DNA of 64,000 bases, from NCBI RefSeq assembly GCF_000526155.1, contig NZ_JAFN01000001.1, forward strand, positions 3,001,014 through 3,065,013. The letters run 5' to 3'. A program made the position numbers and the translations under genes. The notes under the pieces are model-generated. The model was given only the letters and a program-made list of their open reading frames with translations, did not search any database and was not told the DNA's origin. Shown piece after piece: positions 3,732 to 61,546 of this stretch (its first letter is position 1; every line of letters begins with the position of its first letter). The stretch is from Deferrisoma camini S3R1 (GTDB taxonomy: Bacteria; Desulfobacterota; Deferrisomatia; Deferrisomatales; Deferrisomataceae).

Positions 3732-3912
3732 CCCGCATTATTCATGAAGCCTTCTGCTGCAACCGCCGATTGCACGCCATCTCGGGGCGTGCTCGCGCCT
3801 CGGGGCTCGACGTACCGTCCAGTACGCCTGCGCCCCTCGTTGCTGCGCTTGCCCCGACCTGACGCACACTCGACGGTTTCGCGACGAACGCTCATGAATA
3901 ATGCGGGCTAGG
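3728..3912. mobile_element. MITE-like element with perfect 20-bp terminal inverted repeats
   Basis: The ends 3728-3747 (CTAGCCCGCATTATTCATGA) and 3893-3912 are perfect reverse complements around 145 bp with no gene. The left end overlaps the stop codon of the ChaN/PDZ gene. The interior contains a further hairpin-like segment near 3808-3827 (GACGTACC / AGTACGCC). No transposase is present, so any movement would need one in trans. A degenerate left-end copy lies near 40656-40706. Confidence 0.75.
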
Positions 3913-9859: not shown

Positions 9860-9938
9860 AACTTCGGTCGTCGGTCGTCAGTCGTTGGTCGCCGGTCGGG
9901 GGCCTTCGGCCCGCTGGGCAGCTAGGCGGCTAGGCGGC
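9860..9938 (-). repeat. Composite repeat: heptad array, hairpin, octads
   Basis: ACTTCGGTC opens a 7-nt array (GTCGGTC, GTCAGTC, GTTGGTC, GCCGGTC). The hairpin GGGCCTTCGGCCCGC and the octads GCTAGGCG follow. The ACTTCGGTC boundary faces the start of the solute-binding gene. It shares modules with the repeats at 11753, 15717, 40278 and 61395. Confidence 0.75.
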
Positions 9939-10311
9939 TAAAACCTGCGTGATTCCATCTTCGTAGCTTGCACGAACCTGTGGGAGCGGCTCCCGATGGC
10001 GCCGCCGTCGACCCGCGGGCAGGGGGTCTGCTGGCGCGCTGGGCGCGGCCGGATTCAGGGGTCAGAATTCAGAGGACAGCGGACAGGAAAATCGCAGGAG
10101 CGGTTTTCCCCTGTCTTCTGTCCACCGGGTCCTGATTCCTGAAATGCAGGTCCCTTGCCCCCGAGGGGCCCCCGGTTCGAGCGCGACTCGGTATCAGTTC
10201 TATCCATTCGGCACGTGAGCGGGAGCACTTGACTCTCCCGCCGACACCCCGGCCGCCGGGTCTCCCCTGCCCAGGGGGGATCACGAGGCGATTCCCCGGC
10301 AAAGGCCCGGC
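9939..10311. other. Intergenic gap with degenerate 7-nt arrays and an inverted repeat
   Basis: No gene is seen. Bases 10051-10091 read as 7-nt units (GGATTCA, GGGGTCA, GAATTCA, GAGGACA, GCGGACA). About 30 nt later, 10104-10140 carries the inverse class (CCCTGTC, TTCTGTC, TCCTGAT). GGACAG...GGAAAA pairs with TTTTCC...CTGTCC across the centre. A single right end of the ATACC family (GCGCGACTCGGTAT) lies at about 10181-10194. Confidence 0.55.
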
Positions 10312-11618: not shown

Positions 11619-11660
11619 GAACTTCGGTCTACGGTCGACGGTCTTCGGTCTCTTGGCCCC
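11619..11660 (-). repeat. Heptad array abutting the bioA start
   Basis: GAACTTCGGTC is followed by 7-nt units CTACGGT, CGACGGT, CTTCGGT. The boundary lies 16 nt from the bioA ATG and faces it. Confidence 0.7.
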
Positions 11661-11752
11661 CAGGGCAAGTGGCTCTCGCCAACCCGGCGGCGGGGGGCGT
11701 CAGGGTACGCCGCACGTGTAGGGTCCTCCAGGGCCGATGGGGGCTTTCCAGT

Positions 11753-11890
11753 AACTTCGGTCGTCGGTCGTCAGTCGTTGGTCGTCGGTCGGGGGCCTTC
11801 GGCCCGCTGGGCACTAGGCGGCTAGGCGGCTCTCGAACCGCGCCAAAGCTCGGGGGGCGTGGGGCCTGCTGGAGCGCCCGCCTAACGGGC
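11753..11890 (-). repeat. Full composite repeat (type copy)
   Basis: Modules in order on the plus strand: TAACTTCGGTC boundary; 7-nt array (GTCGGTC, GTCAGTC, GTTGGTC, GTCGGTC); hairpin GGGCCTTCGGCCCGC; octads (CTAGGCGG); GCTCTCGAACCGCGCCAAAGC; and GGGGCCTGCTGGAG. The same order recurs at 40278-40390 and, inverted, at 61395-61534. The gap 11605-11937 holds only repeats. Confidence 0.8.
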
Positions 11891-11908
11891 CGGGCTACCC
11901 GGAATTTC

Positions 11909-11948
11909 CCTAGTTCCTAGTCTCTAGTTTCTAGTCTCTAGTCTCTGG
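11909..11948. repeat. CTAGTCT heptad array overlapping the 3' end of the SpoU-type gene
   Basis: Exact 7-nt period: TCCTAGT, CTCTAGT, TTCTAGT, CTCTAGT, CTCTGG. The TAG stop and the last two or three codons of the minus-strand methyltransferase lie inside the array. A short array of the same word (ACTAGAG) is at about 61121-61137. Confidence 0.75.
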
Positions 11949-12753: not shown

Positions 12754-12902
12754 CGGCTAGGCGGCCGGGCGGCGTGGCGCCTGGGCGGTAGGAAAGGGCT
12801 GGCAGGCCGGCCCTGGGGGCGATGCACGGGGGAACGTCCGATGCCGCACATCCCCCTTCCCCCCGGCTTCGCCCCCTGAAGCCGGGCGACACGCGATGCG
12901 GA

Positions 12903-13817
12903 TCACGACCTGTCCTCTGACGTCTGTCCCCCGACCCCTACCCAGCGGGCGTACGCGCCGCTGGGCAGGGGTCGGCCCGTTTCGTCGCGCACGAGCATCT
13001 CGCCCGTCTCGATCCGGTCCGGCCGGCGGGGAACCGCGGCCTCGAGAAGGTTTCCCAGGGTCGTCGGCGTGAACCCCGGGGTGTGGCAGCTCAGGAGCAC
13101 GAAGGCCGGGCCGTCGTCCAGGATCTGGGCGCAGGCTTCGAGGAGAGGCACCAGGTCGTTTTCGATCTTGAACACCTGGCCCTTGGGCCCCCGGCCGAAC
13201 GTGGGGGGGTCGAGCACGATCCCCTGGTAGCGGTTGCCCCGCCGACCCTCCCGCCGCACGAACTTGAGGGCGTCGTCCACGATCCAGCGGATGGGGTGGT
13301 CGCCCAGGCCGTTCAGGCGCGCGTTCTCCCGGGCCCACTCCACCACCCCCCGGGCCGCGTCCAGGTGGACCACGGCCGCACCGGCCTGGCTCGCGGCCAG
13401 GGTGGAGCCGCCGGTGTAGGCGAACAGGTTCAGCACGCGGGGCCGCCCGTGGCGGGCGAGCCGCCTCAGGGTCTGCCGCAGCCAGGCCCAGTTCTCCGCC
13501 TGCTCCGGAAACAGCCCCAGGTGGCCGAAGTCGGTGAGCCGCACGTGGAACCGCAAGCCCCCATAGGCGATGGGGAACTCCCGGGGCGCGTTCCGGCGCC
13601 ACTCCCACCGCCCTCCGCCCTTGTCGCTGCGGTGGTGAACGGCGTCGGCCCGCTCCCACTCGGCCGGCGCCAGCCGGCGAGGCCATACCGCTGCCAGCCC
13701 CTGGCGCACCAGTCGCAGCGGGCCCACCTGTTCGAGGCGCAGCTCTTCACCGGTGTCCAGGAGCCGGTAGGTTCCGTAACTTCGGTCGTTGGTCGTTGGT
13801 CGTTGGTCGTTGGTCAT
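12903..13817 (-). CDS. Class I SAM-dependent methyltransferase (RlmI/COG1092-like), repeat-flanked ends
   Basis: About 304 residues from the ATG at 13817. The Rossmann fold is clear: VLNLFAYTGGSTLAASQAGA (SAM loop), HLDAARGVVEWARENARLNG and the target-binding LDPPTFGRG. The early block YRLLDTGEELRLEQVG matches the N-terminus of rRNA cytosine methyltransferases of the Methyltrans_SAM type. There is no ATG or GTG between the conserved domain and the GGTCGTT array, so the only good start lies inside the repeat and the first residues are repeat-encoded. The C-terminal tail (GQTSEDRS) is likewise read from a heptad array. The start is uncertain. Confidence 0.82.
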   Translation of the reverse strand: MTNDQRPTTNDRSYGTYRLLDTGEELRLEQVGPLRLVRQGLAAVWPRRLAPAEWERADAVHHRSDKGGGRWEWRRNAPREFPIAYGGLRFHVRLTDFGHLGLFPEQAENWAWLRQTLRRLARHGRPRVLNLFAYTGGSTLAASQAGAAVVHLDAARGVVEWARENARLNGLGDHPIRWIVDDALKFVRREGRRGNRYQGIVLDPPTFGRGPKGQVFKIENDLVPLLEACAQILDDGPAFVLLSCHTPGFTPTTLGNLLEAAVPRRPDRIETGEMLVRDETGRPLPSGAYARWVGVGGQTSEDRS

Positions 13818-13818
13818 G
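13777..13818 (-). repeat. GGTCGTT heptad array inside the 5' end of the methyltransferase gene
   Basis: TAACTTCGGTC is followed by four near-perfect GGTCGTT units and then GGTCATG, which supplies the likely ATG. Gain or loss of one 7-nt unit would shift the reading frame. Confidence 0.8.
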
Positions 13819-13857
13819 GGTGGGGCTTCGGCCCGCGGGTAGGCAGGTTTCGGAATC

Positions 13858-14140
13858 ATACCAAATTGCGTTCAAGGTGATCGGCCCCTGATCCGGCGGG
13901 GCAAGGGGCCTGGTGGATCGCCGGGCGTGGCTCCTACAGTCGCTGCATCCGGCACTCAGCCGATGCCTGCCTCGCGACGATCCCGAAAATACCTTGTCAA
14001 CGTTCGCTGTCCCAACGTCCAAGGAGCACCAGGGCTGAGTGCCGGATGCAGCGTAAGTCGGATGCTGCACTCACGCACGGCCGGAACCAGGCCCCTTGTC
14101 CCGACCCCGGATGGATCTCTGTTTGAACGCAACTTGGAAT
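13858..14140. repeat. Nested repeat island: ATACC-type ends enclosing a 21-bp inverted repeat
   Basis: The outer ends 13858-13875 (ATACCAAATTGCGTTCAA) and 14123-14140 (TTGAACGCAACTTGGAAT) are near-perfect reverse complements of the dispersed palindromic family. Inside, 13941-13961 (CGCTGCATCCGGCACTCAGCC) and 14033-14053 form a perfect 21-bp inverted repeat around 71 nt. The right end touches the stop codon of the nuclease gene. No gene is seen between 13818 and 14139. Confidence 0.75.
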
Positions 14141-14652
14141 CAGTCGTGATCCCGCCAGGTCTTCTTGCGGAGGTACTGCCAGGGGGGAACCGGGGCGTCG
14201 CTCCGCCACAGGCCCTTCCGGAACCGCCGGGCCCGGGCCTCCAGCTCCCGGAGCTTGGGGTCCTCGTCGTAGTCGGGAACGGCCCAGGCCAGGCCCTCCT
14301 CCACCAGCATCCGGTTCAGGTTCCGGCCCCCGGGCAGGATCACCACCCCCAGGATGTGGCCGTACCGGTTCCGGCCCTGCATCTTCACGACCACCCGCTG
14401 GCCCTCGGCCTTGGACATCGTGAACTTCCGGGCCTGCTTCTCGTACGGCTGGCCCTTTTCGGGGCTGTCCACCCCGGCCAGCACCACCCGCACGATCCGG
14501 CCGTTCTCCTTCTGGACCTTGAGCGTGTCGCCCCGGAGCACCCGCACCACCCTGCCCTCGAACTCCCCCCGCCACAGGCCGCAGGCGGCCAGGGACAGGA
14601 CGGCTCCCAGCAGAATCCACCAGGGCATTCGTGTCCGATCGGGGCGCCGCAC
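14140..14652 (-). CDS. Staphylococcal-nuclease-like (SNase) lipoprotein
   Basis: Thermonuclease-family protein of up to 170 residues. An ATG at 14628 (MPWWILLG) is an equally good start, giving 162 residues. The signal peptide ends in the lipobox LAAC, so the enzyme is probably anchored outside the inner membrane. The SNase fold is seen in VVRVLRGDTLKV, RVVLAGVDSPEKGQP (with the catalytic Arg and Glu positions) and GRNRYGHILGVV. It would cut nucleic acid with Ca2+. Its stop codon touches the end of the 13858-14140 repeat island. Confidence 0.88.
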   Translation of the reverse strand: MRRPDRTRMPWWILLGAVLSLAACGLWRGEFEGRVVRVLRGDTLKVQKENGRIVRVVLAGVDSPEKGQPYEKQARKFTMSKAEGQRVVVKMQGRNRYGHILGVVILPGGRNLNRMLVEEGLAWAVPDYDEDPKLRELEARARRFRKGLWRSDAPVPPWQYLRKKTWRDHD

Positions 14653-15700: not shown

Positions 15701-16116
15701 GGGGCCCCCTTCCAGTAGTAACGTCGGTCGTCGGTCGCTGGTCGCTGGTCGCTGGTCGCTGGTCGTCGGTCGGGGGCCTTCGGCCCGCTCGGCAGCTAGT
15801 GTTCTGTTACGCAAAAAGTATATCCATTCCGGCGGTGGAGCTGGGGGCTCCGACGAAGCGCGACGGCCGAGCAGCCCGGGCCGCCCGGCGCCAGGGGAGC
15901 GGCCGCGGCGCGTGCTCTCACGCGCCGCAGCGGACTGCGCCGAGGCGGCCCCTGCGAGGCCGTTCAGCGAAGGAGGGGCCCCCAGCCCCACCCCTTGGGA
16001 ACAGCACGATCCGGTACACGACAGTAGTAACGTCGGTCGTCGGTCGGGGGCCTTCGGCCCGCTCGGCAGCTAGGCGGCCGGGCGGCTCTCGGCCCGCGAC
16101 AAAGCCAACCTGCGGT
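15701..16116 (-). repeat. Repeat-filled gap: two heptad modules and 153-bp element copy B
   Basis: No gene is seen. Bases 15717-15793 hold TAACGTCGGTC, a long 7-nt array (GTCGGTC, four GCTGGTC units, GTCGGTC), the hairpin GGGCCTTCGGCCCGC and CAGCTAG. About 15838-15989 is the inverted 153-bp element, with hairpin arms at 15905-15914 and 15919-15928. Bases 16022-16090 hold a second short heptad and hairpin module. All three face the EamA start. Confidence 0.8.
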
Positions 16117-25777: not shown

Positions 25778-25855
25778 GGGAACTCCAGGCTTTCGAGCTT
25801 CCCGGCCTCCCAGCTTTCCAGCCTTCTAGCTTTCCAGCTTTTCGGCCTTCCATCC
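25778..25855. repeat. Octad array between convergent genes
   Basis: Clear 8-nt period: AGCTTTCC, AGCCTTCT, AGCTTTCC, AGCTTTTC, GGCCTTCC. It lies between the palindromic element and the terminator. Confidence 0.7.
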
Positions 25856-40138: not shown

Positions 40139-40789
40139 GATCCGAGTCCCTCCGCTCGTCCGGACGTCTCCCGGGAGAGCCTGCCTGCCCGGGGCACCCC
40201 CGCCGGTCCCGTTTCCCACCTCGGTCGGGACCGCGATACCTACCACAACCCCACCCCCACTCCAAGCCCCCTTCCCGTAACTTCGGTCGACGGTCTACGG
40301 TCAACGGTCGTCGGTCTGGGGCCTTCGGCCCGCTGGGCGGCTCTCGAACCACGCCAAAGCTCGGGGGACATGGGGTCTGCTGGAGAGTCGCTGCGCGGCG
40401 GATCTCAATGCCCGGCTTCGCGCGCGGCCGGGGGCGGTCCCGCCCCCCGAGGGCTCTCGGTCCAAACGCAACTCGGTATGAGTGCCGGGGGCCCGGCAAC
40501 AGGGAAAGGGCAACTTGTCACGCCCCATTACGTGTAGGTGCGACTCCTGGTCGCGATCCTGGGCCGTGAGGCCCGGCGGGGCCTTGTCGCGGTTTGGAAG
40601 GCCGCTTCCACGGGTGAGGGCGTACGGCTTCGTCCGCAGGCTAAGGCCTACCCGGCTACCCGCACCGTTCACGAGGCCTCTTGCCGCAGCCACCGATCGC
40701 ACGCCTTCTGAAGGACAGACACGGGAAGTTTCATGCTGCCGGCACCCAACGTGGCAATCGGCCGATTGCCAAGACTACACCCGGCCGCC
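40139..40789. repeat. Repeat-rich gap: composite repeat, ATACC end, degraded MITE
   Basis: No intact gene is seen. Bases 40278-40390 are a composite repeat (TAACTTCGGTC, 7-nt units, hairpin, GGCTCTCGAACC, GGGGTCTGCTGGAG) facing the outer-membrane gene. Bases 40390-40450 are a fragment of the about 165-bp element. Bases 40470-40482 are one end of the ATACC family (CAACTCGGTATGA). Bases 40656-40706 resemble the left end of the 3728-3912 MITE-like element. Confidence 0.65.
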
Positions 40790-58737: not shown

Positions 58738-59144
58738 GAACGCTAGGAGGCTGGGAAGCTGGGAGGCTAGGAGGTTAGGAAGCTTGAAAACCTCCCGGAT
58801 TCCCACGCCTTCTAGGAATCACCATGCCTTTTCGCCTCCACCTCACGGTCTGGGAGGAGCGCCGGGTACGGCCCCTTAGCTCGCCGCGCAGCGCCTTTGA
58901 CGCTCAGACCACGAAACGGTTCGGATTCCACCGAAGTTGTCATGAAACCAGCTTTTCGGTCCCGTGCCTGCGCGGCGAATCTCAACGCCCGGCTTCGCGC
59001 CCGGCCGGAGGCAGGTCCCTTGCCCCTCCCTCCGGGGGCGCTCTCCTTGTTTGGCCGGCCCAAATCTCCCCTGGAATTTTCGAGTCCGATCCCCTATCCT
59101 CCGCGCGGACCCCGCCCCGACCCTCACACCCCTAGGGAGGAGCC
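58738..59144. repeat. Repeat-filled gap: octad array and about 165-bp element copy P
   Basis: No gene is seen. Bases 58744-58786 are octads (AGGCTGGG, AAGCTGGG, AGGCTAGG, AGGTTAGG). Bases 58873-59040 are the about 165-bp element (CTCGCCGCGCAGCGCC...GGCTTCGCGCCCGGCC), oriented toward the cotransporter gene. GGGAGGAGCC before 59145 is the ribosome-binding site. Confidence 0.7.
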
Positions 59145-61006: not shown

Positions 61007-61546
61007 TGCGTGTCGGGCCTCGTCGACCCCTTCCGGCCGCCGCCCGGCGGGCTCGTGGTATGCTGGGGCCTCGATGCCGGGGGAAGCCCCATCAGGCCCT
61101 GTGCGGGGCCGTCCAGAGACTAGAAACTAGAGACTTAAAAACCCGGGAGTTCGGACCATTGGGCGGGGCTCTATCAGGCCCCTTTTGAAGCCGTACAACG
61201 GGAAGGTAACTTTTGTTGGTCCGGAGCCCATTGCCGGCGGCGGGTCATGGGGCCTGCTTCCGGCCGTGCGCGAGTGCAGCATCCGATCGCCGCGCCTTCG
61301 CATGCCGTTGCCGAAGTAGCCTGTTCGGGCGGCGACAGCGGAGGGCCCTGGAATTCGACAAAGCTACAGATGTTCGGGGGGCGCGGCGAGACAAGGAGCC
61401 GCGCCCGGCTCTCCAGCAGGCCCCATGCCCCCGAGCTTTGGCGCGGTTCGAGAGCCGCCGGGCTGCCTAGCCGCCCACCGGGCCGAAGGCCCCCGACCGA
61501 CGACCAACGACCAACGACCAACGACCGAAGTTACATGGAAGGCGTC
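61007..61546 (+). repeat. Repeat-filled gap with an inverted full composite repeat
   Basis: No gene is seen. Bases 61121-61137 hold the ACTAGAG heptad word. Bases 61395-61534 are the composite repeat in inverted order: CTCCAGCAGGCCCC, GAGCTTTGGCGCGGTTCGAGA, CTAGCCGCC octads, hairpin GGGCCGAAGGCCC, then GACCAAC heptads and the boundary GACCGAAGTTAC. The boundary ends at the next gene's start region. Confidence 0.75.

Follow-up and report, generated by a model that had tools for sequence, protein, structure and literature searches.

Intergenic arrays that keep their period while their words drift in Deferrisoma camini S3R1: possible recognition ends of dispersed elements

Introduction

How does a piece of DNA hold a 7-nt rhythm when the words that carry the rhythm differ from one unit to the next? 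The question is raised by positions 10051-10140 of the window, by which we mean the whole stretch of 64,000 nucleotides analysed here, bases 3001014-3065013 of the one-contig 4.24 Mb genome of Deferrisoma camini S3R1 (G000). A sequence-only reading of the window had described at this place a row of heptads followed by an inverse row, conserved in period rather than in sequence, and had been reminded of the heptanucleotide repeats of cyanobacteria. We compared the locus with a sample of the rest of its genome, with two further species (G001 and G002), with other genomes of the phylum and with published repeat systems.

Results and discussion

The locus is a hairpin with heptad arms

The period is indeed kept better than the sequence at 10051-10140: the words vary, and 40 matches are counted at lag 7 where shuffled sequence gives 20.3, none of 500 shuffles getting as far as 40. 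The best period-7 segment scores 8.0 (equalled in 0 of 500 shuffles), and lags 5, 6 and 8-12 are flat, with nothing above shuffles. CAG cores stand at 10056, 10063, 10070, 10077 and 10084, spaced by exactly 7 nt, and CTG cores at 10111, 10118, 10132 and 10139 lie on the grid of the CAGs, the CTG expected at 10125 being missing. The forward and inverse arrays recognised from the letters are thus a CAG row and then a CTG row on a common grid, and each of them makes one arm of a dispersed hairpin element. Tandem Repeats Finder does not pick up so degenerate an array, which also falls below the threshold of 10 used genome-wide. The parts are:

10046-10150, no strand assigned: hairpin element, both arms of which are degenerate heptad arrays (lag-7 excess, DNA fold, dispersed family)
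10053-10088, plus strand: left arm, five CAG heptads (lag-7 analysis)
10089-10108, no strand assigned: hairpin tip with the inner part of the stem (fold)
10109-10142, plus strand: right arm, four CTG heptads with one core absent near 10125 (lag-7 analysis)

On either strand, 10046-10150 folds as DNA into a single hairpin (z -4.0 and -4.5) whose stability is matched by 0 of 200 shuffles; in the minus-strand fold, paired runs with one core each are separated mostly by interior loops of 2 nt. The element is one member of a dispersed hairpin family, with heptad arms in register, present in three species (G000, G001 and G002), as found by a search that scored 40 candidates per genome. The family alignment drew 35 places from sampled loci and stretches of the three species, 30 rows being counted and 5 dropped, in a frame whose 3' end resembles GCAGGCCCCATGCCCC. 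Among the 30 rows, consensus-paired columns vary at 0.045 versus 0.115 for the others, and compensatory change occurs in 3 cells only. We also asked whether a unit and its mirror image in the opposite arm carry the same linker letters, and rejected the idea: 38 of 90 agree and 37.0 are expected, no better than chance. At the matching gene pair the reported copy is absent from both G001 and G002, and two congeners of the family sit in segments, 330 and 339 bp long, that are each specific to one species.

Two periods and a small number of vocabularies

The periodicity scan covered 438 intergenic pieces (145,236 bases) from an 864 kb sample, 20% of the genome, with gene calls from our own simple model. 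It gave 98 period-7 segments, against a mean of 0.75 and a maximum of 2 in 20 shuffles and 2 in coding DNA, and 86 period-8 segments, against a mean of 0.95, a maximum of 3 and 5 in coding DNA. The comparison of intergenic DNA with shuffled sequence that the sequence-only reading had proposed therefore showed a strong period-7 excess rather than none, and 8-nt arrays, overlooked by that reading, are as common as 7-nt ones. Periods 5, 6, 9, 10, 11 and 12 yielded 4, 6, 6, 10, 1 and 4 intergenic segments, none of the remaining periods between 4 and 13 rising above 10 in this sample, and the 75 and 56 segments at periods 14 and 16 belong to multiples of 7 and 8. A chance origin is rejected by the shuffle comparisons, as is coding periodicity, predicted genes being nearly free of arrays.

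About a quarter of the sampled pieces (112 of 438) carry arrays. Their flanking genes are tandem in 85, divergent in 14, convergent in 10 and at an edge in 3, the corresponding numbers for pieces of 150 bp or more that lack arrays being 92, 40, 18 and 10. Clustering sorts the 96 heptad arrays into 12 groups, 88 of the arrays falling into four of these, and the 80 octad arrays into 10, with 75 in five. Each vocabulary joins near-fixed core columns to free ones, as in GGTC-NNY or CTG-NN-TY; in the AGACTAG vocabulary one A/G column varies. The earlier impression of many unrelated words in one segment stands as to their number, but the words belong together in four main heptad and five octad vocabularies; the proposed common factor NNNNRTC dissolves into several vocabularies with cores of their own, and clustering rejects it as a universal word. 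The order of units inside arrays is near random, with 22 of 87 and 36 of 108 adjacent units identical versus 18.1 and 34.4 after shuffling.

Arrays and composite elements of the window

The other arrays of the window are as follows:

9864-9898, plus strand: GGTCNNY heptad array (periodicity scan, gene-pair comparison)
9898-9912, plus strand: small GC hairpin GGGGGCCTTCGGCCC bridging heptads and octads (sequence, fold)
9913-9940, plus strand: octad array GGCTAGGC (Tandem Repeats Finder, period-8 scan)
11622-11651, plus strand: CGGTCNN heptad array adjoining the start of a predicted class-III aminotransferase gene (periodicity scan)
11757-11791, plus strand: GGTCNNY heptad array of a composite extending to about 11945 (periodicity scan)
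11814-11831, plus strand: octad array of the 11757-11945 composite (period-8 scan)
11909-11945, plus strand: CTAGTYT heptad array at the far end of that composite (periodicity scan)
12754-12788, plus strand: octad array (Tandem Repeats Finder, gene-pair comparison)
12904-12936, plus strand: weaker CTG-vocabulary array in a 191-bp segment found in G000 only, lacking in G001 (lag 7, P=0.018)
13784-13820, plus strand: near-perfect GGTCGTT array where the gene 12903-13817 is predicted to start (Tandem Repeats Finder)
15722-15772, plus strand: GGTCGYT/C heptad array (Tandem Repeats Finder, periodicity scan)
25789-25849, plus strand: octad array shared with G001, with equal unit number and two substitutions (period-8 scan, alignment)
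40284-40316, plus strand: CGGTCNN heptad array (periodicity scan)
58742-58780, plus strand: octad array (period-8 scan)
61494-61526, minus strand: GGTCGTT heptad array immediately before a predicted start codon (periodicity scan)

The similarity of 12904-12936 to the reported site, also pointed out from the letters, is borne out more weakly (lag-7 count 16 versus 9.9). The G000-only segment with the CTG array (12903-12941) provides the final codons and stop of a predicted methyltransferase gene. The class-III aminotransferase gene has its nearest matches in MAGs named Malonomonas, Deltaproteobacteria and Desulfuromonas, as would be expected of a host from or near the Desulfobacterota. At the place of 9864 a GGTC-type array is present in all three species, with different words and lengths.

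The GGTC heptads frequently belong to a composite layout in which TTCC-N-GTAACTTC is followed by 3-8 heptads, GGGGCCTTCGGCCC, octads, a shared core and CTAGTYT heptads, all pieces of which are present at 11740-11945. A 3' flank is held in common with another array by 33 of 43 GGTC arrays, and a 5' flank by 5. The terminus TTCC..GTAACTTC occurs at 65 places in 1.21 Mb, with GGTC heptads next in most of them and octads (CGCTAG 10, CGTTAG 2) or a small hairpin next in the remainder. The possibility that array termini form inverted pairs round a transposase gene was set aside, as just one +/- pair was found.

Several other elements lie nearby or elsewhere in the genome. Within a GGTC composite there is a palindrome-like element of about 230 bp (15774-16009), matched dozens of times in G001 and G002 and followed by a second partial composite. 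A dispersed element of about 290 bp (13856-14145) is matched at many places in G001 and at some in G002 and partly matches its own reverse strand, and a 180-bp insertion at 3732-3911, lacking in G001, has inverted ends and CTAG at both sides. Outside the window, positions 780001-800000 of the genome contain five near-identical ATTCACC heptad arrays inside 12 kb, most with octad arrays beside them, and a Y1 transposase gene nearby.

The stable hairpin at the reported site, together with several GGTC arrays that end beside a Shine-Dalgarno-like sequence, brings to mind elements acting at the RNA level in 5' or 3' untranslated regions, either as hairpins or as sites of RNA-binding proteins of the cold-shock or TRAP-like kind, and a role in translation is proposed by MacGregor for TAACTGA repeats in the portion of that article drawn on here (PMC4679880). 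We consider this explanation very unlikely: the window gives 0 Rfam matches at gathering score, by which a known RNA family is rejected, compensatory changes in the hairpin family are few, and the GGTC composite, folded as DNA, shows no more stability than shuffled sequence does (z 0.94 and 0.31), so that DNA structure is rejected for the composite as well. The preference for gene boundaries is also weak over all families, with 35 arrays within 40 nt of starts versus 30.3 expected and 43 within 40 nt of stops versus 31.0.

Arrays change by whole units

G000 and G001 were compared in four syntenic blocks with 336,286 aligned bases in chains. Among indels of at least 4 nt, counts that take in some poorly aligned stretches, multiples of 7 make up 7 of 11 in period-7 arrays versus 3 of 68 elsewhere, and multiples of 8 make up 9 of 13 in period-8 arrays versus 2 of 68. 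Arrays at equal places were also found in G065 and G128, which represent a distant genus; two of the three alignments made show steps of 7 and 14 nt together with point changes, and the third array is nearly unchanged. Such gain and loss of whole units at matching places would keep the period while the words drift.

Substitutions reach 7.1% and 6.5% in arrays versus 5.7% in the 80-bp flanks (G000/G001), so that the arrays, being no slower than their surroundings, do not demonstrate strong selection. Among the core columns of 33 arrays that align well, 11 of 666 changed, and among the variable ones 16 of 383 (P=0.015), a difference for which mutability without selection may account, since the columns were set on G000 arrays, partly those tested, and alignments below 80% identity were dropped. 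No clean target-site duplications were seen around the array-bearing elements.

It would be natural to ask whether these are ordinary decayed microsatellites, which arose by slippage and were blurred by point mutation with no recognition involved. Whole-unit indels, the neutral-like overall rate and the perfect homogeneous CTGNNTY arrays of Photorhabdus and Serratia genomes all agree with such an origin. Of the two marks of simple sequence repeats, length change by whole units is observed here and near-identity of the units is not. However, one array after another varies in the same columns, the order of units is close to random, the core/linker rule recurs in 24 genera and paired arrays have a fixed polarity, and we hold a purely microsatellite nature to be quite unlikely.

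Spread across the phylum and polarity of pairs

Rows of CTGNNTY, the vocabulary of the reported site, occur in 38 of 148 phylum genomes and in 24 of 109 genera, with a reversed-pattern control that is mostly zero; GGTCNNY rows occur in 13 of 148, and array words recur in many related genera. Hit counts of these pattern searches refer to overlapping windows of long arrays and not to the number of arrays. Among 41 genomes reached via named loci 8 match CTGNNTY; the CTG matches of three Desulfobacterales or Desulfobacteraceae MAGs mix different words, and those of Photorhabdus and Serratia are perfect one-word repeats among the matches listed.

Wherever CTG arrays on opposite strands lie within 250 nt of each other, the CAG side is on the left and the CTG side on the right: in 11 of 11 pairs of G065 and G179, in 6 of 6 of the own-genome sample and, under a stricter array definition, in 5 of 5 of a larger genus sample. 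In G065, 20 arrays have flanks lacking a common element and most arrays are unpaired, so that many of them are not visibly the ends of any element. A 27-unit CTG/CCG heptad array in another genome (G152:C26) includes an alternating two-word stretch, a pattern expected from 14-nt duplications, and in G179 (C191) three consecutive paired CTG arrays lie inside 2 kb, two of the three pairs enclosing similar GC-rich cores.

REP, BIME and REPIN elements and MITEs are dispersed short non-coding palindromes of intergenic DNA, and the REP elements of RAYT systems are short palindromes that carry a tag, GTAG/GGAG or CGTC, and lie beside a RAYT gene. Our elements share the dispersed palindromic character, but here the arms or ends are degenerate tandem arrays. 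That they are of REP type and owe their mobility to Y1 (RAYT) transposases seems highly doubtful, although 12 Y1 matches were obtained in the D. camini genome, with frames of at least 330 aa for several of them, and in the phylum sample Y1 genes occur in 33 of 38 genomes with CTG arrays versus 67 of 110 without arrays (P=0.003). This association may mark no more than genomes rich in mobile DNA. Of the 38 array-bearing genomes 5 have no Y1 match, and one of these, G142, gives 77 array hits, the joint highest count of the CTGNNTY search; an array lies within 1.5 kb at 2 of 10 own-genome Y1 loci. RAYT as the sole mobiliser is weakened by both the Y1-less genomes and these loci.

Relation to published repeats

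The arrays resemble unexplained repeats already published for Geobacter metallireducens; the comparison was made with the text and legends of the 2009 genome paper (PMC2700814). The sections consulted describe paired opposite-strand sites, read as sites of a global regulator with IHF/HU as possible binders, and divide them into class 1 (four octads), class 2 (three repeats) and class 3 (five heptads MTYCTGA, with 16 sites printed); a 49-copy GGACCGG heptad element is also mentioned. On this textual basis the reported site fits class 3 by the rule of its words, by the number of its units and by the way the arrays are paired. Its word, written as CTG-A-M-T-Y, falls within CTG-NN-TY, the rule that most of our units follow, and corresponds to the case in which N is A, some units of the reported site being without the A. 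Both have five heptads, in our case five CAGs on the left and four CTGs with one gap on the right, and both are intergenic and paired on opposite strands at variable distance; relative to the class 3 account, linker letters are freer here, and the pair makes up the arms of one dispersed hairpin. Classes 1 and 2 and the GGACCGG element, as described there, are alike in tandem octad rows, GC-rich heptad rows and many dispersed copies, and appear to differ from ours in their words. The phylum-wide count, evolution by unit steps and fixed polarity go beyond the class 3 description in those sections.

The cyanobacterial likeness suggested from the letters was apt in kind, Geobacter metallireducens being much closer. 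In the excerpts used, TAACTGA direct repeats are reported from Beggiatoaceae, Cyanobacteria and some Bacteroidetes (PMC4679880) as intergenic heptad rows in dozens to hundreds of sets over scattered taxa, similar to ours but made of a single invariant word. The GGGNATC quadruplex repeats of Xanthomonas and Nostoc, as far as the consulted part of PMC4692102 describes them, are likewise intergenic heptads with a preferred unit number and one variable letter, mostly between aligned genes, but have a G-run core, whereas our vocabularies have no GGG core. In the literature searched, which covers subscription journals thinly, we found no published account of degenerate phylum-wide arrays.

The proposal made for Geobacter may be extended to our arrays, which would then be paired sites for a nucleoid protein or global regulator of IHF/HU type, persisting since they regulate genes. 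Besides the closely similar paired heptads and octads for which it was put forward in the consulted sections (PMC2700814), a fixed core with a free linker fits binding of a protein at multiple sites, core columns change less, and GGTC arrays between tandem genes are oriented 22 to 7 (P=0.008). This value, like that of the GTGAC family (6 to 0, P=0.031), is uncorrected for the nine families tested, most of which have no orientation bias. Copies also come and go among congeneric species, whole arrays evolve at the local rate and many vocabularies in one genome would require many regulators, so that we regard this explanation as unlikely.

Conclusions

With a confidence a little above even, we propose that non-autonomous, non-coding dispersed mobile elements have these arrays as their recognition ends or arms, which would be read in trans unit by unit. 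The reported site is a hairpin element with inverted arms, each built of five heptads, with a common CAG/CTG core and differing letters between the cores. The period would be preserved since copy number shifts by whole units, through replication slippage or unequal exchange, and a trans-acting candidate, for which an oligomeric DNA-binding protein belonging to the machinery of movement is the likeliest choice, would read a core every 7 or 8 nt and tolerate the linker letters, words drifting where they are not read.

This mobile-element reading draws on the excess of periods 7 and 8 limited to intergenic DNA, on the small set of vocabularies, in each of which some columns are fixed and others free, on composite copies with common 3' flanks and the TTCC terminus, and on the species-specific segments and the absence of the reported copy from G001 and G002. 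Whole-unit indels, the fewer changes of core columns, the less variable paired columns, the single polarity of pairs and the occurrence of CTGNNTY over so many genera point in the same direction. Against it count the free-standing arrays of G065, the near-neutral rate and the few compensatory changes, and no transposase or other factor tied to the arrays was found.

More speculatively, and in our view improbably, these may be phylum-wide elements whose ends are set by rhythm and not by sequence: an oligomeric candidate protein would read a core of 3-5 nt per 7 or 8 nt and ignore the linkers, so that wording diverges under a constant period, core and polarity, and core vocabularies differ by lineage. 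With arrays in about a quarter of the sampled intergenic pieces and one vocabulary in 24 of 109 genera, the motif, the spacing and the polarity provide handles for finding the protein that reads them or for showing that none exists.
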